DNA of 64,000 bases from Amycolatopsis endophytica (GTDB lineage: Bacteria > Actinomycetota > Actinomycetes > Mycobacteriales > Pseudonocardiaceae): the NCBI RefSeq assembly GCF_013410405.1, contig NZ_JACCFK010000001.1, forward strand, positions 2,108,001 through 2,172,000, written 5' to 3'. Both the position numbers and the translations under genes were made by a program. Below, piece after piece: positions 3,245 through 36,492 of the stretch. The stretch's first letter is position 1. Each line of letters opens with the position of its first letter. Under the pieces are notes generated by a model, which was given only the letters and a program-made list of their open reading frames with translations, ran no database searches and was not told where the DNA came from.

Positions 3245-4462
3245 TCAGGCGGCGCGCATGTGCCGGGCGTAGGTGGGATCGAGCTGGAAGATCTTGCCGA
3301 GCCGGTCGACGTAGCGGCGGCGTTCGAGCGTGCCGAGGTACTCCTGCAGGGCGGTGGCGCCCGGGATGAGACGGCGGGCGGTTTCGACGGCGAAGTTGCC
3401 CGCGGCGACCGCGAGGATGGCGCCCTGCGCGACCGGGTCGTCGGGGATTTCGAGGAAGTCGGCGTTGGCCTTGCCGAGCACGATGCGGCTGATGGACGAG
3501 TGGACGGCGACGCTGACGTGGGAGAGGACCTTGCCGACCGCGCCGCGATCCTGGCCGATGGCGGCGTGTGAGTCGATCAGCGCCTTGGCGAGGCGTTTCG
3601 AGTCGTCGTCGGGGATGAACTCGGTGGCGGCGAGCAGCCAGAACAGGCGCCAGGCGTCCTCTTCGGTCGCGGGCAGCAGTTCCTCGTCGATGCCGAGCAG
3701 CCAGCCGACGTAGCGCCAGAGGTGCAGGATGTCGGCGCGTTCGCGCTCGCTGAACCGGATGCCGAGCAGCTGGGTGCCGTGCACGAAGACGAGGGAGAAC
3801 AACAGGAGTGTGCCCGCGGTCTGGACCTGGTTGACGGGCTTGTCCCATTCGTCGTAGTCCCAGTCGGGGCGCCGGTTCATGGCGGCGCGGACGTGGGCGT
3901 GCACGAGGCGGACGCGCAGGGCGGAGGCGTAGCCGGGGCCGTGGACGGCGAGTGCGCCGGGGTCGGTGACGTCCATCCACCACGCGGCGGTCTCGACGAG
4001 GCGCCGGCTGGCCATGCGTTCGATCTCCCCGGTCGCGACGAGCGATTTCGTCGCGCGCGAGGCGAGGTAGCCACCCATCAGGGACATGTCGCCGAGCGGG
4101 AACAGCCCGAGCACACCGGTGCGGACGATGGCTCGCGCGCCCCGGTCGAGCCGCGCCGGATCGACCCAGTACGGGGTGGCTTCGACGATGCCGAAGAAGT
4201 CGACAAGTTCCTTCGGCGCCTTGTCGAGACTCTCGAGACCTTGGTGGAGCGCGGTTTCGAACAGCCGCCGCCCCTCGCCCGCGGGCAGTCGATGGAACAT
4301 CGCGACGACGGCGTCGGCTCGTGGATCCTCCGCCTGAGCAAACGCCCGGAACCGACGCACCTGACGCTCCGTCCCGCGGATGTCCCCCTTCGCGAAGAGC
4401 CTCTGCACCAGGCGAAAGCCACCACGGCGGAACAACTCGGGATCCGGCAGCCGCTCATCCAT
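3245..4462 (-). CDS. MpaB-type oxygenase (DUF2236)
   Basis: About 405 aa soluble, mostly helical protein. The core RPDWDYDEWDKPVNQVQTAG, LVFVHGTQLLGIRFSERE and HLWRYVGWLLG segments are characteristic of the DUF2236/MpaB family, haem-dependent oxygenases that include rubber-cleaving Lcp and the fungal MpaB. Histidine and arginine positions typical of the family (HLWRYVG) are present. No signal peptide is seen, unlike secreted Lcp. The ATG at 4460-4462 is chosen because GGAGG sits 9 nt upstream; the frame runs on to 4498 without a ribosome site. An inverted repeat at 4481-4496 overlaps its promoter region. Substrate unknown. Confidence 0.8.
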   Translation of the reverse strand: MDERLPDPELFRRGGFRLVQRLFAKGDIRGTERQVRRFRAFAQAEDPRADAVVAMFHRLPAGEGRRLFETALHQGLESLDKAPKELVDFFGIVEATPYWVDPARLDRGARAIVRTGVLGLFPLGDMSLMGGYLASRATKSLVATGEIERMASRRLVETAAWWMDVTDPGALAVHGPGYASALRVRLVHAHVRAAMNRRPDWDYDEWDKPVNQVQTAGTLLLFSLVFVHGTQLLGIRFSERERADILHLWRYVGWLLGIDEELLPATEEDAWRLFWLLAATEFIPDDDSKRLAKALIDSHAAIGQDRGAVGKVLSHVSVAVHSSISRIVLGKANADFLEIPDDPVAQGAILAVAAGNFAVETARRLIPGATALQEYLGTLERRRYVDRLGKIFQLDPTYARHMRAA

Positions 4463-4480
4463 GCACACCCACCTCCGTTG

Positions 4481-4496
4481 GACAACGAGTGTTGTC
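4481..4496. promoter_or_regulatory. perfect inverted repeat upstream of the mpaB-like gene
   Basis: GACAAC-GAGT-GTTGTC, two 6-nt arms with a 4-nt centre, 19-34 nt upstream of the mpaB-like start codon. Size and symmetry fit a TetR-type operator, but no cognate regulator gene is adjacent. Confidence 0.4.
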
Positions 4497-4550
4497 ACTT
4501 TCGGACCCGTCAGTCAAGGGGGTGTTGGCGGGCGGAGGGAAGCGAGCTTG

Positions 4551-4556
4551 TATGCT
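4551..4556 (+). promoter_or_regulatory. candidate -10 box of the tRNA-Gly gene
   Basis: TATGCT lies 10 nt before the first base of the tRNA, the usual spacing for a tRNA promoter. No convincing -35 box is seen at 17-18 nt; TTGGCG is 20 nt upstream. Confidence 0.4.
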
Positions 4557-4566
4557 GTGCGTCGCT

Positions 4567-4637
4567 GCGGATGTAGTTCAATGGTAGAACATCAGCTTCC
4601 CAAGCTGAGAACGCGGGTTCGATTCCCGTCATCCGCT
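4567..4637 (+). tRNA. tRNA-Gly (anticodon CCC)
   Basis: 71-nt cloverleaf. Acceptor arms GCGGATG/CATCCGC, D-arm GTTC...GAAC, anticodon stem TCAGC/GCTGA around loop TTCCCAA (anticodon CCC, reading GGG), T-arm GCGGG-TTCGATT-CCCGT, discriminator T, no encoded CCA. From the anticodon loop onward the tRNA is part of a 47-bp sequence repeated at 8539-8585, so its 3' half is now supplied by an integrated element while the tRNA stays intact. Confidence 0.95.
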
Positions 4638-4643
4638 CTTCGC
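4597..4643. repeat. attachment-site repeat, left copy
   Basis: 47-bp sequence starting in the tRNA anticodon loop and ending 6 nt past the tRNA. It is identical to 8539-8585, and the flanks diverge at once on both sides (C versus G before, A versus G after). This fits crossover within a tRNA-targeted att core. Confidence 0.9.
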
Positions 4644-4647
4644 AGGT

Positions 4648-4687
4648 CAGAAGGGGTGCCACCCGACCTTGGGAGGCACCCCTTCTG
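4648..4687. terminator. hairpin terminator between tRNA-Gly and the integrase relic
   Basis: Perfect 13-bp stem (4648-4660 with 4675-4687) around a 14-nt loop. It lies between the tRNA and the convergent integrase remnant whose stop codon is at 4688, so it can serve both directions. It came in with the element; the ancestral tRNA terminator is probably the hairpin at 8587-8631. Confidence 0.7.
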
Positions 4688-4996
4688 CTATCTCCAGCAA
4701 CATCCCAACAACATCACGCGGGGCCCCCTGCGGTGGTCCTCGACGAGCTTCGAGAGCCGGTCCGCGATGTGCTGATCCGCCTCGCTCGTGGCCCGCTGGT
4801 AGATCAACGCGGCCCGCATGTCGTCGTGCCCCATCCGCGCCATGAGGTCCCGCGTCGACATGCCCGCCTTCGACGCCCAGACGTTGCCCGCGTGCCGCAG
4901 GTCGTGGAAGTGCAGCCCCTCCAGCCCGAGCTTGGTCACGGCCTCGGTCCACCGGGTCCGCTGGTTGAAGTTCGGCCCGGCCAACCCGCCCCCTCG
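4688..4996 (-). pseudogene. tyrosine integrase, C-terminal remnant
   Basis: The last ~100 residues match the catalytic core of actinobacterial phage/ICE integrases: NFNQRTRWTEAV, LHFHDLRHAGN (box II Arg and His), MARMGHDDMRAALIYQRAT with the tyrosine nucleophile, then a short C-tail. Everything before NFN is missing, including the box I arginine and the arm-binding and core-binding domains. The frame continues upstream only as antisense of the phosphotransferase relic. It cannot catalyse recombination alone. Its orientation, reading into the tRNA with the C-terminus nearest att, is the usual arrangement for tRNA-integrating elements. Confidence 0.8.
4695..4714. repeat. candidate integrase arm-type site, left
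   Basis: CAGCAACATCCCAACAACAT matches 8434-8453 at 19 of 20 positions in the same orientation. The copies lie 51 nt inside the left att core and 85 nt inside the right one. It contains an internal CAACAT/AACAACAT repetition, as arm-type integrase sites often do. It also overlaps the last codons of the integrase remnant. Confidence 0.5.
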
Positions 4997-5386
4997 CCAG
5001 ACCTGCCACTCATCACCGACTGGCTCCGCGACCGCCTCACCGACGACAACCTGACCGAACTTCCAGTCGACGAGCAGGTAGCCCCCAAGGCCGAGCGAGT
5101 CCGTGCCCTCGAACTCCTCGACGATCTCACGACAGACATGCGCCCCGGCCTCTGCCACGGCGACGCCTCACCCTGGAACGCCCTCGCAGGCCCCAACAAC
5201 CGCTGGAAGCTCATCGACCCCCGCGGCATGCAAGGCGAACCCGAGTACGACGCGGCTGTGATGGCTTACAAGGTTGGGTGTCTTCTTCCTGATCCGGGCG
5301 CTCAATCAAAGATCGCTAACGCAGCCCAGCTTGACCAAGGCCGCCTCACTGCGTGGGCAACAATCGTGGGTGCAGCGCGGGTCTAG
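4997..5386 (+). pseudogene. aminoglycoside-phosphotransferase-type kinase, C-terminal remnant
   Basis: About 129 codons with the end of an APH/streptomycin-6-kinase-like enzyme: RPGLCHGDASPWNAL (Brenner motif with catalytic Asp and Asn) and WKLIDPRGMQGEPEYDAAV (the metal-binding Asp region). The ATP-binding N-lobe is absent. Upstream the same frame is only antisense of the integrase relic, so the kinase fragment is fused head to head with the integrase fragment at about 4990-4997. No start codon with a ribosome site is seen. It is probably a relic of an illegitimate recombination, not a resistance gene. Confidence 0.7.
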
Positions 5387-5454
5387 TCAAGCTCAAACAG
5401 GAGGATGAGCACCGTCGCCCGCCTCGGTGAGCCGCGGTGATGGTTGGATCAGTA

Positions 5455-7256
5455 TCATTCCTCGGGGTTGGAATCTTTTGCTTTCACTCTCTTGGTATGC
5501 GCAAGTCTGAAGCTAGTTCCCTTGCTCTTAAATTCGTGGTTTGTCGTAATAATTTCGCGCCTCGCGATGTGGGAGCTAAGCGTGTTCTTCTCGAAGGTTT
5601 GAGGAGCGAATTCCGTGCTAGTGGAGGCTAGGACAACATAACACCGCTGCGGAAGGTCGAATAGGGCAAGAAACTGCTCCAGAGTCAGGGCCTTCTGGGC
5701 ATTCAGTTCATCAGTTATCCATTCTGAGTAGTATGCTTTAAGTAGCGGTTTGCCGTTCTGAAGATCCGACTCGATGACATCTGCTGACGTCGACAATTGA
5801 CTGCAAGCATCTCGCATCCTCGCATCGAACCCATCCTTTACATGTATTATGTAGAGAAGCCCGTTTTACGGTCGACGGACAGTAGGTCGAATAACTCGAT
5901 CTTGCCTCGCTGGCTCACCGCGAAGATCTTGTCCCCGTAGTAGAAGTCCGGCGTCGCGGCCTGGCGTCTGTTGAAACCATCTTCGTCGTCGTCGCTCCAT
6001 TCGAGCAAGCCTGGAATTTTTTTGATCAGGATTGGATTGGAAGCGCGAAAGGTTTCTTCGATAAAGTCTGACCTGAGGTTGTCGAGAAACGCCCCTTGGC
6101 TCCGATACCATACCTTATCGAGCAGGAAATAGGTCTCGTTGTCTAGGATCACTTGCCCGTGGAAGTACTTGTGAAGATCGTGGACGATTTTTCGTGACTC
6201 GTCGTCTTCGTCGCCCGGAGAGTAGCTCATTCGCATCGACATAATCCGTCGGTGGAAAGCTTCCTGATCTCCGAGAATGGTCGATCCAAGCTGCTTGCCT
6301 AGTATCTCGCGTAGGTGTTCCTTCTCTGGCGGGTCGGCATCCTTGATGTCCCAGTAGGCTAACTTGAAGTTCGATCCGGCGTAGTAACGTGCGACATCTT
6401 CAGGGTCGCAGATATCCAGGTCGATTCCTTCATTGTTTGTGACGTAATGCCTCAAGTCCTCAATGAGCTGTCGATACAGTGCGTTGATCTTGTCCTTGGT
6501 TTTGACCGGATACAGATTGTCCAGAAAAGACAACTCATTCACTTCTTCGGCCGATGGTTCAGGTAGCTCCTCAAGTTCATGAATGAGTGACACCAATTGT
6601 GCTAAGTCTAAACTTTTTCTGAGCACGAAGGATGACTTGAACTCCAGGGCTGGAGGCTTTGTAGGATCGACTATGGCGCGCAAGTAGCTCTGCGCGCCCA
6701 GGCGTCGGCTATCTAAGCGACCAACGAGTCGTTTCCATACTTTTCCGAAGGATTCGCTTTTGGAGATAGAATAACCCCGTCGGTAGGTTTCCGTCCGACT
6801 AGTGCGCGGGCCGGTAAATTCTCGAACGTCCGCCTCTTTGAAGTTGTTGGCAATCAGCTTCTTTGCTGTATCGAAAGGGAAGCTGTAATCGACATATTCG
6901 GTGATTATGCGGTAACCCGACCCCGATGTGATGGCGAAAAGTGACGTTTCCGTCGCGATGAACAAGCACACGTCGAGTGATGACCGAAGAAACCTATCTT
7001 CATCTTCCGGGGATGCCAGGTAATTCTTGAGGAAAGGCAAGAGTCCTCTGGATTGCGCATCTCTAACCCAGAGATGGAGATCTACATTTGCAAACGGTTG
7101 CTCGATCTCGATCTCGTCGAGTTTCCTGTATCGCGATGGGTCGCTTTTCCGGAGTTTCCCGTAGTTGGAGATAATTTGTTCAACGACCTCGTTGGGTTCG
7201 TCGTCGTCCGGTACAACAAGCTTCCAGATCGCCGTGTTAGACCGTTTGCCGCTCAT
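5455..7256 (-). pseudogene. TIGR04141/DUF6119-like protein, disrupted by one frameshift
   Basis: Large cargo gene, visibly lower in GC than its neighbours. Frame 1 gives 469 aa from ATG 7254-7256 (AGGTAGG upstream; a GTG at 7281-7283 is also in frame), including a FAITSGSGYRIITEYVDYSFPFDTAKKLI block and a YRRGYSISKSESFGKVWKRLVGRL block as in the sporadically distributed TIGR04141/DUF6119 family. It ends at a TAA just after FDLLSVDRKTG. In the -1 frame the sequence continues LLYIIHVKDGFDARMRDACS to a stop at 5455, matching the expected C-terminus. The shift maps to a four-T run at 5864-5867 (four A on the coding strand; five would restore about 600 aa). The family has no established function; a defence role is inference from its mobile setting. 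Confidence 0.65.
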
Positions 7257-7420
7257 AGCTAGCCTACCTGTTCGCTCTGTCACTATTCGTGGTGGCTATC
7301 GGGGACGGCGTTGAACGTTGTTACAGGTGGCACCAGGCTGACCACGAATCGTTACCTAGGCTGGGGTGGCCGGATTGCTCTCAAGGGATCTTGTTGCCGA
7401 ATCCACCTCTATGGGATCAA

Positions 7421-7442
7421 GGCGGCGCGCAAGCGCGCCGCC
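7421..7442. terminator. GC hairpin downstream of the DUF6308-like gene
   Basis: Perfect 10-bp stem GGCGGCGCGC/GCGCGCCGCC with an AA loop, 75 nt beyond the stop codon of the leftward gene at 7517. It separates that gene from the frameshifted cargo gene, so the two may be transcribed independently. The rest of 7257-7516 shows no gene. Confidence 0.45.
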
Positions 7443-7516
7443 GCCGGTGCCGCTCGGCCTGCCGCTCCGCTACGGCCGGCGGCCCGGCGTTGGAGGAGTG
7501 CTTCGGCCTCCGTTTA

Positions 7517-8185
7517 TCACCAGGTCAGCATGTCGAGTAGGCGCAGATCCGTGACTCCCGCCAGGCGCAAGACGCGCTCCTGCGCGTGAAGCGTGATCGC
7601 CGTGCGGAGCCGCTCCAAGGCTCCGGACATTGTGGCCGCGAGGAGGTCTTCGCGGACAGCCGCCCACGTCATCGACCGATATCCCCACTGCGGATAGCGT
7701 TGGGCTTGCAATCGCGCTGGCACCCGATAAGCAGTGAAGACGTGCTGATCAAGGATCGGGAAGAGGGAGGGCCGCTTCACGTGAAGGACCTTGCTCACTT
7801 TCGCATGGCTGACACCCCGTGGCCGAGCGTCCATGAAGTGCCGGTACAGCGCCGTCATATCCGCGTACAGCCCACTTCGCTCGGCTGGGTCGGCGTCGCG
7901 TAGGTCGCTCTCTGGCGGGACCCATGGTGCGTCTAGTGCCCGCTCGATGAACCAGCTCATCTCTTCGGTGCTGATGCGGGAACGTACGACCCGAGTGCGC
8001 ACGACCTCAGCGGGGCTGAGCGTATAGGGGTCGCCTGGGCCGGGCAGGTCGTAGCGTGGTGGCGTCGCTTCCGGGTAACGCTCGAGAACCGCAATCGCGT
8101 CGTCCAGCGTTATCGTGCGGTCAGCGACAACCAGGATTGCCCTGCGGTCACCGGCGGGTTCAATCAGCACCGCATGATTGTGCAT
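7517..8185 (-). CDS. uncharacterised cargo protein, DUF6308-like
   Basis: 222 aa soluble protein, second gene of the element. Its central motif HAKVSKVLHVKRPSLFPILDQHV followed by a C-terminal RLLDMLTW resembles DUF6308 proteins, in which a K-RP-L-P-x-D block is conserved; I make this match from memory and hold it loosely. There is no signal peptide or membrane segment. The ATG at 8183-8185 is the only good start. It reads in the same direction as the TIGR04141-like gene, with a hairpin between them. Function unknown; its location makes it accessory, possibly a partner of the other cargo gene. Confidence 0.5.
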   Translation of the reverse strand: MHNHAVLIEPAGDRRAILVVADRTITLDDAIAVLERYPEATPPRYDLPGPGDPYTLSPAEVVRTRVVRSRISTEEMSWFIERALDAPWVPPESDLRDADPAERSGLYADMTALYRHFMDARPRGVSHAKVSKVLHVKRPSLFPILDQHVFTAYRVPARLQAQRYPQWGYRSMTWAAVREDLLAATMSGALERLRTAITLHAQERVLRLAGVTDLRLLDMLTW

Positions 8186-8210
8186 GCTTAGGCCGACGAT
8201 TCAGTCCTAA

Positions 8211-8236
8211 GCCGGGGCTCCGCCCCAGGCCCCGGC
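8211..8236. repeat. nested GC palindrome upstream of the DUF6308-like gene
   Basis: Outer arms GCCGGGG (8211-8217) and CCCCGGC (8230-8236) enclose the alternative hairpin GGGGC-TCC-GCCCC (8214-8226). It lies about 30-50 nt before the leftward start codon. The remainder of 8186-8538 has no credible gene; it contains the right arm-type repeat and a pair of GGTCAAC motifs 10 nt apart (8459-8475). Confidence 0.4.
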
Positions 8237-8433
8237 ACCGCTTCAGAGATCGGGGGAGGATACGACCGGTGACCTCCTCACGGCGCGCCCGAGGGCAGCC
8301 AGCCCGGCTGGCGCCGGTCAAGGGCGCTTCGCGGCCTCCGGCAGACCCTTGACCGGCACCACCCGGCCCGGCAGGGGTGAACCCGCGCCGCGAGGAGATC
8401 ACCTCAGCAGCAGCCGTCTGCGAGGGCAGCTCG

Positions 8434-8453
8434 CAGCAACATGCCAACAACAT
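8434..8453. repeat. candidate integrase arm-type site, right
   Basis: CAGCAACATGCCAACAACAT is 19/20 identical and parallel to 4695-4714. It is placed just inside the right att core, as expected for paired arm sites of a tyrosine integrase. Confidence 0.5.
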
Positions 8454-8538
8454 GCCCCGGTCAACCAGGGTCAACAGGGGTACCCCGCGCACATCAAGAA
8501 CCGCAGGTCAGGGCCGTTTTCCTGCGCTCCGGCTATGG

Positions 8539-8585
8539 TTCCCAAGCTGAGAACGCGGGTTCGATTCCCGTCATCCGCTCTTCGC
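8539..8585. repeat. attachment-site repeat, right copy (displaced tRNA 3' half)
   Basis: 47 bp identical to 4597-4643. It carries the anticodon loop to the acceptor end of tRNA-Gly but no 5' half, so it is not a tRNA gene. It is read as the original chromosomal 3' half, pushed aside when the element integrated. Confidence 0.9.
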
Positions 8586-8586
8586 G

Positions 8587-8631
8587 CGAAGGCCCAGGTC
8601 GGCGGGTGTCTACTCCGGACCTGGGCCTTCG
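8587..8631. terminator. ancestral tRNA-Gly terminator
   Basis: Perfect 14-bp stem (8587-8600 with 8618-8631), 17-nt loop, followed by TCGTTTCTT. It begins one base after the right att copy, where the tRNA terminator would have been before integration. Confidence 0.65.
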
Positions 8632-8791
8632 TCGTTTCTTGATCAACTCAGGCTGCGTGCCGTTGGCGCGCCCCTGGAGGGCGGGCTGCTTGGATGCGGC
8701 ACCTCTTGCGGAGAAGTGGGGTTCATCGCCGAGGGCGGTGAGGGAGGCTGTGCCTGGTCAGGGGCGAGCATCTCACGGCGCTGGGCGATCC

Positions 8792-8875
8792 GTGATCGCG
8801 CGGGTGGGGCGTTACGCGGCATCGAAGGCATTCGTACTGTCCTTCACTCAGGAGGTGTGGGTGGAAACAAGGGGA
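8792..8875 (+). pseudogene. short-chain dehydrogenase fragment
   Basis: About 28 codons reading RVGRYAASKAFVLSFTQEVW, the YxxxK active-site helix of an SDR oxidoreductase. No Rossmann glycine motif lies upstream and no substrate-binding part follows; the frame soon runs into unrelated sequence. It is a decayed relic in the otherwise empty 8632-8951 interval, where I see no other gene. Confidence 0.4.
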
Positions 8876-8951: not shown

Positions 8952-9332
8952 ATGGTGCGCCGACTCTTCACCGCGACGTTGATTTCCCTGGCCGTGGTGG
9001 CTTGCTCCTCCGACGACGGCGAGCAGGCCGATCCGATAGCGACGCCACCGCCCAGCAGCAGCGGCGATGCGTCGATCGTTCAGGTGGCCTATCGGAACGG
9101 GCAGGTCGATCCCGCGAACGTCGTCGTGCAGGGGAAGGTCGGGCAGCCGATCCAGGTGAACGTCACCTCCGACCGTGCGGACGACATCGTGGTCGACGCC
9201 TACCCCGACGCGAACGCCGACGTGGACCCGACCGAGCCCGAGGACATCGACGTCACGCCCTCGAACACCGGCACCTTCACGATCCGCCTGCGCGCCGCCA
9301 ACGCCACACTCGTCACGGTCGAGGTGCGCTGA
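8952..9332 (+). CDS. small lipoprotein
   Basis: 126 aa. The N-terminus MVRRLFTATLISLAVVACSS is a lipoprotein signal with lipobox VVAC, so the mature protein is anchored to the outer face of the membrane. After a Ser/Pro-rich linker comes a single ~75-residue beta-rich domain (QVDPANVVVQGKVGQPIQVNV...NTGTFTIRL), resembling cupredoxin-like or YHS-like folds but lacking clear copper ligands. The ATG at 8952 is preferred; a TTG at 8943 is in frame and no Shine-Dalgarno site is evident. Its last 20 bp overlap the convergent gene at 9313. Function unknown. Confidence 0.65.
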   Translation: MVRRLFTATLISLAVVACSSDDGEQADPIATPPPSSSGDASIVQVAYRNGQVDPANVVVQGKVGQPIQVNVTSDRADDIVVDAYPDANADVDPTEPEDIDVTPSNTGTFTIRLRAANATLVTVEVR

Positions 9333-10047
9333 CCATCTCGCGCAGCGGGGCGGACAGGCGGTCGCACAGGGGTTGGTCCACGTGAGTGACCTCGGCCAGC
9401 AGCAGGTCCACCACCAGGCCGAACGCGCGTCGTAGCTCGGCTACGGACGTAGTGCGCACCAGGGCGTTCGTGAACGGGGCCACCACCTCGGCCGGCAGGT
9501 CGTCCATCCCGCGGCCCTGCACGGCAGGCACCTCGTGCCGCAGGCAGGCCAGCGCGAGAACCTGGTCCCGCGCCCCGCTGATCATGTATTCCGCCTGCCA
9601 GACCCGGTTCCGTGCGATGCTCGCCCGCGCGTGCAGGGCGTAGAGCCAGGCCCAGCCGATCAGGGACTCGGCGGCCGGTGGCGGAATCCGCGGAAGCGTT
9701 TTCGCCTCTCCGAACAGGGTTCGAAATTTCGGACCGGTGGCGCCGAACTCCCGTTCGGGCCAGAAGGCGATGTCGACCTGCAGCGTGTCCGGCAGGAGGA
9801 ACACCCGGAAGACGCTCAGGTCCAGGTGGTGGATCGCGCCGTGGTCGCGGTACATCCGGTCGGTCCAGTCTGTCAGGACCTGGTCGCGGTCGGTCGCCAC
9901 GGCGAGTGCCAGGTCGATGTCCGACCAACGGTCCTCTCGTCCGACCGACGCCGAGCCGGTCAGTGCCGCACCGCTGATTCGCGGATCCGCGCGGGCCGCG
10001 GCGATCAGCGAGTCTCGCAGTGACAGTCGGCTTTCCGGGGTGAACAT
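9313..10047 (-). CDS. nucleotidyltransferase-domain protein
   Basis: 244 aa. The Pol beta-type catalytic motif is clear: LTGSASVGREDRWSDIDLAL (GS at 31-32, D43 and D45) with the third carboxylate in LQVDIAFW (D92). A helical C-terminal half could bind the acceptor substrate. AGGAGG lies 9 nt before ATG 10045-10047. The gene starts 5 nt after the stop of the membrane Nudix gene, so they form a two-gene operon, and a shared nucleotide-linked substrate is a reasonable guess. A role as a toxin (MNT type) is not supported because no HEPN partner is present. Confidence 0.75.
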   Translation of the reverse strand: MFTPESRLSLRDSLIAAARADPRISGAALTGSASVGREDRWSDIDLALAVATDRDQVLTDWTDRMYRDHGAIHHLDLSVFRVFLLPDTLQVDIAFWPEREFGATGPKFRTLFGEAKTLPRIPPPAAESLIGWAWLYALHARASIARNRVWQAEYMISGARDQVLALACLRHEVPAVQGRGMDDLPAEVVAPFTNALVRTTSVAELRRAFGLVVDLLLAEVTHVDQPLCDRLSAPLREMVSAPRP

Positions 10048-10052
10048 CGTGC

Positions 10053-11273
10053 TCAGCCTCCTACTCGTGTGCCCGCGGTCCACAGCGCTGCCGCCCGCAG
10101 GGCCAGCAGCAACGGCACCGAACCGCTTCCGCGGACCGGTTCCGGCAGGGCCGGTGAGAATACGCCCGTATCCGCAACCTCCCGGCCGTACCGCGCGAGG
10201 TCGATCTTCTCGAAGCGCACCGCCGCGGTGAAATCGCGTTCCGCGCTGCCCGGGCGGCGGGTGGCGAGTTCCCGCCGCGACACGGACAACTCCGTCAGGC
10301 CGAAGAACTCCGGCTTGCCGCCCCGGTCCATCCAGCGCGCGAACCCGACGACCGTCGTGCGGACGATCTCGTTCCGGCGCAACCCGGTTTCCTCGCACAG
10401 TTCGCGCTCCATACCGGCGCGGACGATCTCGTGCAGGTCGTCGCCGCCGAGGTCGCGCGGCTCCAGCGATCCGCTGCCCGACGGGGCCAGCAGCGACTGG
10501 CTCGCGGAGTTCCGGTCGGACTGGATCACCAGCGGCACCCAGCCGTCGGTCGTGACCGCCACCGTCGACACCCCGACGATGTCCGCGAGCGGGCTCTCCG
10601 CGAGGGTGCGCAGGCGGCCCGCGGTGTCGACCATCATGCGTTGCCGCAGGTCGAAGACCTGGTCGCTGTCCCTGCGCGCAATCCGCAGAGTGGCCAGCTC
10701 GTTCGAGCACTGCGCGTCGAAGAAGCGCGTGCGGTGCAGCCGGATCGGCGCGCCGTTGCCGACCGACGGCAGCGGCTCACCGCGCATGCCCACGACCTTG
10801 CCGTTGAACAGCAACCGGCCGCGGGCGCGCAGCGGCAGCACGTACGGCGCGGTGGCCTTGAGTTCCGCGGGCAGGTGGTAGGGGTCGGCGGCGATCTCGA
10901 CGCGGAACGGCTGTGTCCACAGTGCGCGGTCGACGGTGTTGCTGACCAGGCCGGTCCCGCGGTTCGGCAGGTGGATGTACTCGGCGCCGGGATAGCTCGC
11001 CGGTGGCGGGACGTCCGTGTGCGGGAACGGCGCGGCGATCGCGGTGAACTCGAACGCGGCCCAGCGGCCGCGGAGCGTTCGCACGTCCCGGACGAGGGTC
11101 AGGATCCCGAGCACCAGCGCCAGCACCGACAGCACGACGCCGACCGCGCTCGGCACGAGCGTGACCAGGCCGAGCAGCACGCCCAGCGCGGACACGAGCA
11201 CCGGCCATTCGCGGGATCCGATGAACCAGACGTAGTCCGCCTTCGCCCTGGCGCGGTTGCTCAGCTTGCCCAT
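10053..11273 (-). CDS. membrane-anchored Nudix-like protein
   Basis: 406 aa. Two adjacent hydrophobic helices (about 22-42 and 43-62) form an N-terminal hairpin anchor. A cytoplasmic region follows with RAGMERELCEETGL (285-298), the core of the Nudix box (RExxEExG). The glycine and first glutamate upstream in the box are not well placed, so hydrolase activity is uncertain. It is cotranscribed with the downstream nucleotidyltransferase. The ATG at 11271-11273 faces the divergent immunity-like gene. Actinobacterial membrane Nudix proteins of this layout are uncharacterised as far as I know. Confidence 0.6.
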   Translation of the reverse strand: MGKLSNRARAKADYVWFIGSREWPVLVSALGVLLGLVTLVPSAVGVVLSVLALVLGILTLVRDVRTLRGRWAAFEFTAIAAPFPHTDVPPPASYPGAEYIHLPNRGTGLVSNTVDRALWTQPFRVEIAADPYHLPAELKATAPYVLPLRARGRLLFNGKVVGMRGEPLPSVGNGAPIRLHRTRFFDAQCSNELATLRIARRDSDQVFDLRQRMMVDTAGRLRTLAESPLADIVGVSTVAVTTDGWVPLVIQSDRNSASQSLLAPSGSGSLEPRDLGGDDLHEIVRAGMERELCEETGLRRNEIVRTTVVGFARWMDRGGKPEFFGLTELSVSRRELATRRPGSAERDFTAAVRFEKIDLARYGREVADTGVFSPALPEPVRGSGSVPLLLALRAAALWTAGTRVGG

Positions 11274-36249: not shown

Positions 36250-36423
36250 ATGGTGCATCCCGAGCCTCCCGGGCCCGAGCCGATCCCGCCGGGGCCGGGG
36301 CCCGAACCGGTGCCGCCGTCTCCGCCCGGGCCCCCGGTGCCGCCCACGCCACCGGAGCCTCCGATGCCGCCGCCGGACCCGCCGCTGGAGAGCCGGACGC
36401 GACCGGAGCGGCCAACACGGTGA
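36250..36423 (+). CDS. proline-rich small protein
   Basis: 57 aa, about half proline, beginning MVHPEPPGPEPIPPGPGPEP and ending in a basic tail. GAGGAGG 5 nt before ATG 36250 is the strongest evidence that it is real. It would be disordered and cell-surface or scaffold-like if exported, but there is no signal peptide. Its last codons enter the 21-bp tandem repeat at 36401. The composition could be a by-product of GC bias, so it is only moderately supported. Confidence 0.4.
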   Translation: MVHPEPPGPEPIPPGPGPEPVPPSPPGPPVPPTPPEPPMPPPDPPLESRTRPERPTR

Positions 36424-36484
36424 CCGGGGCGGCCAACACGGAGACCGGGGCGGCCAACACGGTGACCGGGGCGGCCAACACGGG
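36401..36484. repeat. 21-bp tandem repeat, four copies
   Basis: Four units starting GACCGGGGCGGCCAACACGG at 36401, 36422, 36443 and 36464, differing at one internal base and at the last base. It spans the 3' end of the proline-rich ORF and stops 8 bp short of the DUF3040 stop codon. The length being a multiple of three keeps frames open on both strands. Confidence 0.85.
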
Positions 36485-36492
36485 GGTGGGGG

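Follow-up and report, generated by a model that had tools for sequence, protein, structure and literature searches.

A probable remnant of an actinomycete integrative conjugative element with a defence slot at a tRNA-Gly gene of Amycolatopsis endophytica

Actinomycete integrative conjugative elements (AICEs) are pSAM2-like elements, and cis-mobilisable elements (CIMEs) are att-flanked remnants of integrative conjugative elements (ICEs) without an integrase. The element described here lies between two att copies at a tRNA-Gly(CCC) gene of Amycolatopsis endophytica, within a 64,000-nucleotide stretch of DNA that is called the window (G000:C1:2108001-2172000, G000 being its own genome). Compared with these systems, the interval is very probably a decayed AICE with a defence slot. 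In the whole account favoured here, to which a probability of about 0.75 is assigned, slot 1 of this decayed AICE is exchangeable, the DUF6119 gene that occupies it is a stand-alone defence gene, and the DUF6308 gene in slot 2 is independent. The genome searches covered 390 genomes of the family Pseudonocardiaceae, one genome per species, including 19 of the genus.

The evidence for decay is found at the left side of the element. A preliminary description, made from the letters alone, had proposed a left-over integrase end, and this is confirmed by the Pfam match in Table 1; read to 4993, the remnant is 93% identical to residues 287-377 of the integrase of genome G014. The DNA up to the junction shows 75-97% identity to the integrase ends of relatives, and the DNA from there to about 5276 shows 88-91% identity to the kinase gene of G007, G008 and G014. 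Because the first similarity stops and the second starts at 4977, the anatomy can be explained by one deletion. The kinase-like fragment, a third coding remnant that was absent from the preliminary description, matches residues 149-283 of the G007 protein (283 residues used) at 74% identity, and the corresponding gene belongs to the core of several related AICEs.

At this tRNA, relatives have genes for an integrase, an Xis, a replication protein and an FtsK-type transfer protein, as well as GntR, HAD and kinase-like genes. The order in intact relatives is int-xis-rep-tra-GntR-HAD-kinase, slot 1, module M, slot 2, module R1 and att. Among the 15 att-to-att intervals of the genus, 5 have a complete core (G003, with tra in two open reading frames (ORFs), the first of G008, the first of G011, and both of G014), and replication and FtsK-type transfer genes are present in 5 of the 15. 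The other 10 are decayed (G000, G006, G007, second of G008, G009, G010, second of G011, G012, and two of G013), with hardly any recognisable AICE sequence left in G012. Since the window's element has no replication or FtsK-type transfer genes of its own, it is filed as an AICE remnant and not as an AICE. According to the proposed history, an AICE would have inserted into tRNA-Gly(CCC) by tyrosine recombination, and a single internal deletion would then have removed most of the integrase together with the xis, replication, transfer and regulator genes. The right half, consisting of slot 1 (DUF6119), M, slot 2 (DUF6308) and R1, would have been left along with both att ends. As judged from sequence, the small size appears to be the result of decay of a larger conjugative element and not of design, and the compact, purpose-built element first suggested for this locus was not borne out.

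Table 1. Features of the tRNA-Gly element, in window coordinates
Feature	Position	Strand	Evidence or remark
tRNA-Gly (CCC), integration target	4567-4638	+	ARAGORN (sole tRNA called); Rfam tRNA, 74.8 bits
Left att copy, 47 bp, overlapping 3' part of tRNA	4597-4643	+	identical to 8539-8585
Integrase C-terminal remnant	4691-4977	-	PF00589, 2.3e-7
Paired repeats CAGCAACAT/CAACAACAT within left end (4695/4706), putative integrase arm sites	4695-4714	+	
Deletion junction, integrase end/kinase end	4977	.	DNA similarity switch
APH(6)/hydroxyurea-kinase-like gene, C-terminal fragment	about 4979-5383	+	PF04655, 2.6e-7
Out-of-frame remainder of DUF6119 gene, with motif lysine	5455-5817	-	62% to residues 504-632 of G003 protein
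Slot 1: DUF6119/TIGR04141 gene, N-terminal 478 aa in frame	5847-7283	-	PF19614, 2.3e-23; TIGR04141, 2.9e-19
Module M, conserved non-coding block between slots 1 and 2	7388-7490	+	upstream of R1, same orientation, 30/33 copies
Slot 2: DUF6308 gene, 222 aa	7517-8185	-	PF19827, 6.8e-14; 75% relative in same slot of G014
Module R1, conserved non-coding, folds into branched stem	8211-8408	+	sequence recurrence and fold
Paired repeats CAGCAACAT/CAACAACAT within right end (8434/8445)	8434-8453	+	
Right att copy, 47 bp	8539-8585	+	identical to 4597-4643

In this AICE family, the low-GC slot 1 is situated between the core and M and serves as an exchangeable slot for defence genes. The mean GC of its genes is 0.535 (0.498-0.567, 30 genes), versus 0.633 in 12 slot-2 genes and 0.671 in 8 core genes. 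When 10 of 19 slot-1 genes from one list and 10 picked from another were compared with PADLOC models (E<=1e-8), 13 of the 20 proteins were matched, representing 9 of the 15 other elements tested; thus the link of the cargo to defence that had been proposed is supported. The systems comprise Septu PtuA/PtuB (G014), PD-Lambda-5 A/B (G007), a type II methyltransferase (G003), NucC-like and RmrA-like proteins (G009), IetA/IetS (second G009 element), PDC-M68B (second G010 element), a Pycsar cyclase (G124), PDC-M02B (G002), and TIR/PDC-S66 (another G003 element). Among the controls, PADLOC matched one of 10 proteins from the core and flanks (FtsK-type Tra, 8e-10) and none of 10 from slot 2. In the PADLOC-negative slots, Pfam matches were seen for a TacA/GNAT pair (first G010), ParA and PIN (second G014), and Schlafen AlbA_2 (G018).

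Two slot-1 sets hold proteins that are candidates for defence by their position. Slot 1 of G008 (L045:5909-7685) encodes a 314-aa protein with neither a Pfam nor a PADLOC match and a 285-aa protein with no Pfam match, and slot 1 of G269 (L134:8160-10472) encodes a 770-aa protein with no match to Pfam or PADLOC.

The interval between the tRNA and dusB is an insertion hotspot in the genus. The identical 47-bp repeats reported for the locus were recovered exactly, and the repeated 30-mers of the window come solely from these copies and from a short repeat at 36408/36450, which is a direct repeat over 36408-36490 with a spacing of 42 bp. The tRNA had been thought to have a replaced 3' half; this is corrected here, as it is whole and its 3' part lies within the left att copy. 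The pair CAGCAACAT/CAACAACAT is also present at both ends of elements in G014, G008 (second) and G003, and was not found in those stretches of G015 and G017 that were checked. GC is 0.508 over 5400-7300 and 0.696 for the window. The abrupt fall in GC described earlier holds for roughly 5250-7250, at about 0.50, and does not extend to the remainder of the element (0.58-0.69), with the element ends and the DUF6308 gene being less low. In general, the reading as foreign DNA that inserted at tRNA-Gly and retains chiefly cargo is supported.

In all 19 genus genomes, G000 included, the tRNA adjoins an MpaB-like gene. A second att copy lies downstream of the tRNA in 11 of them, and none was found there in the other 8 (G001, G002, G004, G005, and G015-G018). 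The comparison with an empty site that had been suggested gave a partial answer. In G017, the order MpaB-tRNA-cupredoxin-NT-ORF10053-dusB is intact with no second att copy, and the 87 bases to the right of the element (8586-8672) abut the tRNA end in G015, G016 and G017 at 87-90% identity. The same bases also abut the tRNA in the occupied genomes G006 and G008, so this is not clean proof of an empty site. G018 has only 2.3 kb between tRNA and dusB and no second att copy, and an element-type left end is present at its tRNA locus. Relics occur near the tRNA in further genomes of this group (R-like in G001, G015 and G017, an integrase piece in G004, and a replication gene piece in G016). Because of these AICE relics, the site appears to have been reused repeatedly, and most of the "empty" loci look emptied. 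Additionally, two att-bounded elements stand in tandem behind one tRNA-Gly, with shared att copies between them, in G008, G011, G013 and G014 (loci L045, L048, L050 and L051-L052). To the right of the window's element, a nucleotidyltransferase-like gene (9313-10107) weakly matches models for Polbeta and MntA-type antitoxins; it is taken as chromosomal flank because its order with the dusB region is kept in several genus genomes.

Past transfer of the element may be assumed, mobilisation in trans appears possible, and movement now would need an incoming helper. The strongest alternative, which is nevertheless held to be doubtful, is that the remnant is an inert fossil with neither mobility nor function, in which the frame break marks lost cargo. 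The integrase, replication and transfer genes are gone, the DUF6119 gene is frame-broken, and the integrases elsewhere in the genome, remnant aside, reach only 25-33% identity, or 52% over 42 residues. However, the att copies are intact at both ends, as are the paired inner repeats, the DUF6308 gene is open and constrained (dN/dS 0.11 versus G014), and the two DUF6119 pieces are under equal constraint (pN/pS 0.274 and 0.278). Because both pieces show the same constraint, the frame break is either recent or an assembly error.

The DUF6119 gene was correctly recognised as TIGR04141/DUF6119-like in the preliminary description (83.1 bits against a cut-off of 27 for DUF6119, and 69 against 35 for TIGR04141). 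The 478-aa frame, 67% identical to the G003 protein, reaches position 417 of the 524 of the profile, so there is no full-length open frame. It represents a divergent branch, at 83 bits versus 330-385 bits for other genus members. Close relatives exist in 6 of the 390 genomes, DUF6119 adjoins M in four elements, and no relatives were present in plasmid records. It is the sole gene called in slot 1 of the window, G003 (L040) and G017 (L129); an unrelated 207-aa gene lies beside it in G003. A second, open DUF6119 gene (340 bits) is located in the window's own genome at G000:C1:3490965-3492584 (L004, L078), and neither M nor R occurs in the 20 kb covered there. The C-terminal fold matches of DUF6119, all of low score, are nucleases, and a motif D...(H/Q)xK occurs in 12 of 17 homologues scanned, in which the D/E of D...(D/E)xK is replaced. 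A sequence search of solved structures gave nothing credible for DUF6119 or DUF6308. It is probable that DUF6119 is a defence gene, and somewhat less firmly, structure models suggest that it acts as a nuclease through a PD-(D/E)XK-like C-terminal domain. Most likely it is a stand-alone anti-phage or anti-plasmid protein ending in such a domain.

Several results weigh against the favoured account. No PADLOC match was obtained in 6 of the 15 slot-1 sets (G008, first G010, second G014, G015, G018, and G269), the control set for defence was small, and the elements share ancestry. PADLOC matched 0 of 5 window proteins and has no model for the window's DUF6119, with the intact homologues outside the set. 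In the window, the DUF6119 frame stops short of the motif lysine, and this copy may thus be non-functional; M and R are absent within 20 kb in 3 of the 6 close DUF6119 relatives (G093, G173, and G223). The nuclease fold matches all have a low VIA Z, under 8, and neither Foldseek nor the viral fold library gave a match at E<=0.001.

It is also unlikely that DUF6119 is an accessory of restriction-modification, specificity-like or a helper, in place of a stand-alone effector. By our own reading of translations, the gene lies between hsdS-like genes and next to an hsdM-like gene in locus L111, and follows methylase-like and restriction-enzyme-like genes in L112. Its solitary position in the three slots named above argues against this role, as do the nuclease matches of its C-terminal fold.

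Modules M and R1 frame slot 2 in this AICE family. R1 is the first 198 bases of block R (8211-8538). In total, 33 R1 copies were counted in 30 of 32 sequences examined, and in 30 of the 33 an M of the same orientation precedes R1 by no more than about 2 kb, the copies without M being those of L138, L139 and the second of L043. These places were taken from the best matches of the R query search and are not random; L143, where the R1 match starts too late for the filter, and a weak 63% R1 match in L130 were dropped. The gap between M and R1 is 96-2006 bp, with a median of 656 (29 of the 30 pairs, the second pair of L050 being left out). In elements of G002, G003, G015, G018 and G264 (5 of 18 loci scanned for tRNAs), a tRNA-Phe lies about 150 bp away from R1; therefore the layout is independent of tRNA-Gly. 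The R query matches 127 of the 390 genomes in 23 of 46 genera, some through the last third only, and a 14.9-kb Prauserella plasmid also carries R1, flanked by annotated genes.

The fold of R1 consists of a long outer stem, a long central hairpin and small hairpins at the sides. With the structure read from the window row, towards which the count therefore leans, 92.9% of cells pair and 7 of 30 pairs are changed on both sides; none of 500 shuffles reached any of five measures. RNAalifold on the plain alignment gave a covariation term of only -0.22 kcal/mol, and the central hairpin of divergent rows seems mis-registered. Over 4400-8800, the tRNA alone passes the Rfam gathering score. As a guess from sequence and fold, R1 could be a single-strand origin or a transfer signal. 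A broader and improbable proposal is that R1 and M are fixed boundaries of a platform for cargo exchange, with defence genes in slot 1 and a small orphan gene varying per element in slot 2. R1 would then serve both as single-strand origin or transfer signal and as exchange boundary, the slot-2 genes would act in counter-defence, exclusion or restraint by entering the recipient first or last, and DUF6119 would represent a new family of defence nucleases that work alone. We know of no description of a layout of M, slot 2 and R1 beside a defence slot.

Slot 2 usually holds one small gene, and 26 picked genes fell into 19 blastp clusters. The ORFs came from a simple caller of our own; two of the 26 are from one slot (G002), and those of the second G006 and second G011 elements come from incomplete brackets. 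None of 11 other slot-2 genes compared with Pfam was matched (E<=0.01), nor was any of the 10 slot-2 proteins compared with PADLOC. The DUF6308-like gene seen earlier in this slot was verified (52.6 bits against a cut-off of 27.3). Its close relatives occur in 2 of the 390 genomes, in slot 2 of the window and of G014 only, and in G014 it stands beside the Septu genes. A single-sequence model had a mean pLDDT of 47.3, too poor for use.

DUF6308 relatives were also present in 32 plasmid records, 28 of them from Rhodococcus, and 20 regions were opened. In all but one of 16 Rhodococcus regions (15 of 16), DUF6308 is preceded by one and the same 822-bp gene and followed by variable DNA. In 8 of the 20, genes with an annotation as restriction, DNA methyltransferase, TIR or ThiF/multiubiquitin lie within about 5 kb; the other 12 show helicases, metal-resistance, other or unannotated genes. 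In the Rhodococcus plasmids L113, L116, L119-L123 and L148-L155, the 822-bp gene and DUF6308 border a variable region, which in some holds EcoRI or HsdR restriction or ThiF/multiubiquitin genes. DUF6308 thus borders variable DNA and in some cases lies close to defence genes, with no fixed partner beyond the 822-bp block. As a guess, it may be a small regulatory or nucleic-acid-binding protein.

The preliminary description had joined the two genes into one undescribed system, and a two-gene defence or competition system on a compact purpose-built element is rejected as very improbable: the genes are same-strand neighbours in one att-bounded interval, and DUF6308 plasmid relatives lie near defence-type genes in the 8 regions above, but close relatives of both families co-occur in only 1 of the 390 genomes (the window's own), partners differ (G003 for DUF6119 and G014 for DUF6308), M intervenes between separate slots, and the plasmid neighbours of DUF6308 vary. 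In the favoured account, DUF6308 is an independent slot-2 gene and not the partner of DUF6119. A viral origin was also rejected, as no relative of either gene was found in viral contigs or phage records.

These findings imply that many Pseudonocardiaceae AICEs carry a defence slot at a fixed place, and that unknown slot-1 genes can be ranked as defence candidates by slot: DUF6119, the two unmatched G008 genes, and the 770-aa gene of G269. If the favoured account is true, DUF6119 is an uncharacterised family with a defence function. The single genes of slot 2, mostly with no family match, provide a list for counter-defence or exclusion screens, and R1 is a sequence and structure tag for finding more such elements.

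Comparisons with known systems place both the gene and the element. The DUF6119 protein has no sequence match to HamA (Hachiman), SduA (Shedu) or LmuA (Lamassu) in the PDB search, differs from them in its N-terminal part, has H/Q for D/E in the motif, and has no helicase or SMC-like gene beside it in the slot. With pSAM2-like AICEs, the intact relatives share the tRNA target, tyrosine integrase, Xis-like, replication and FtsK-type transfer proteins, and GntR, whereas of these the window's element retains only the tRNA target, with its att repeats, and the integrase end. The ends of the element look intact, yet no close helper integrase exists in the genome, and its mobility is putative. Like a CIME, it is att-flanked and ICE-derived, has no working integrase and keeps its cargo, and the site bears tandem neighbours of the same kind in the four genomes named above.
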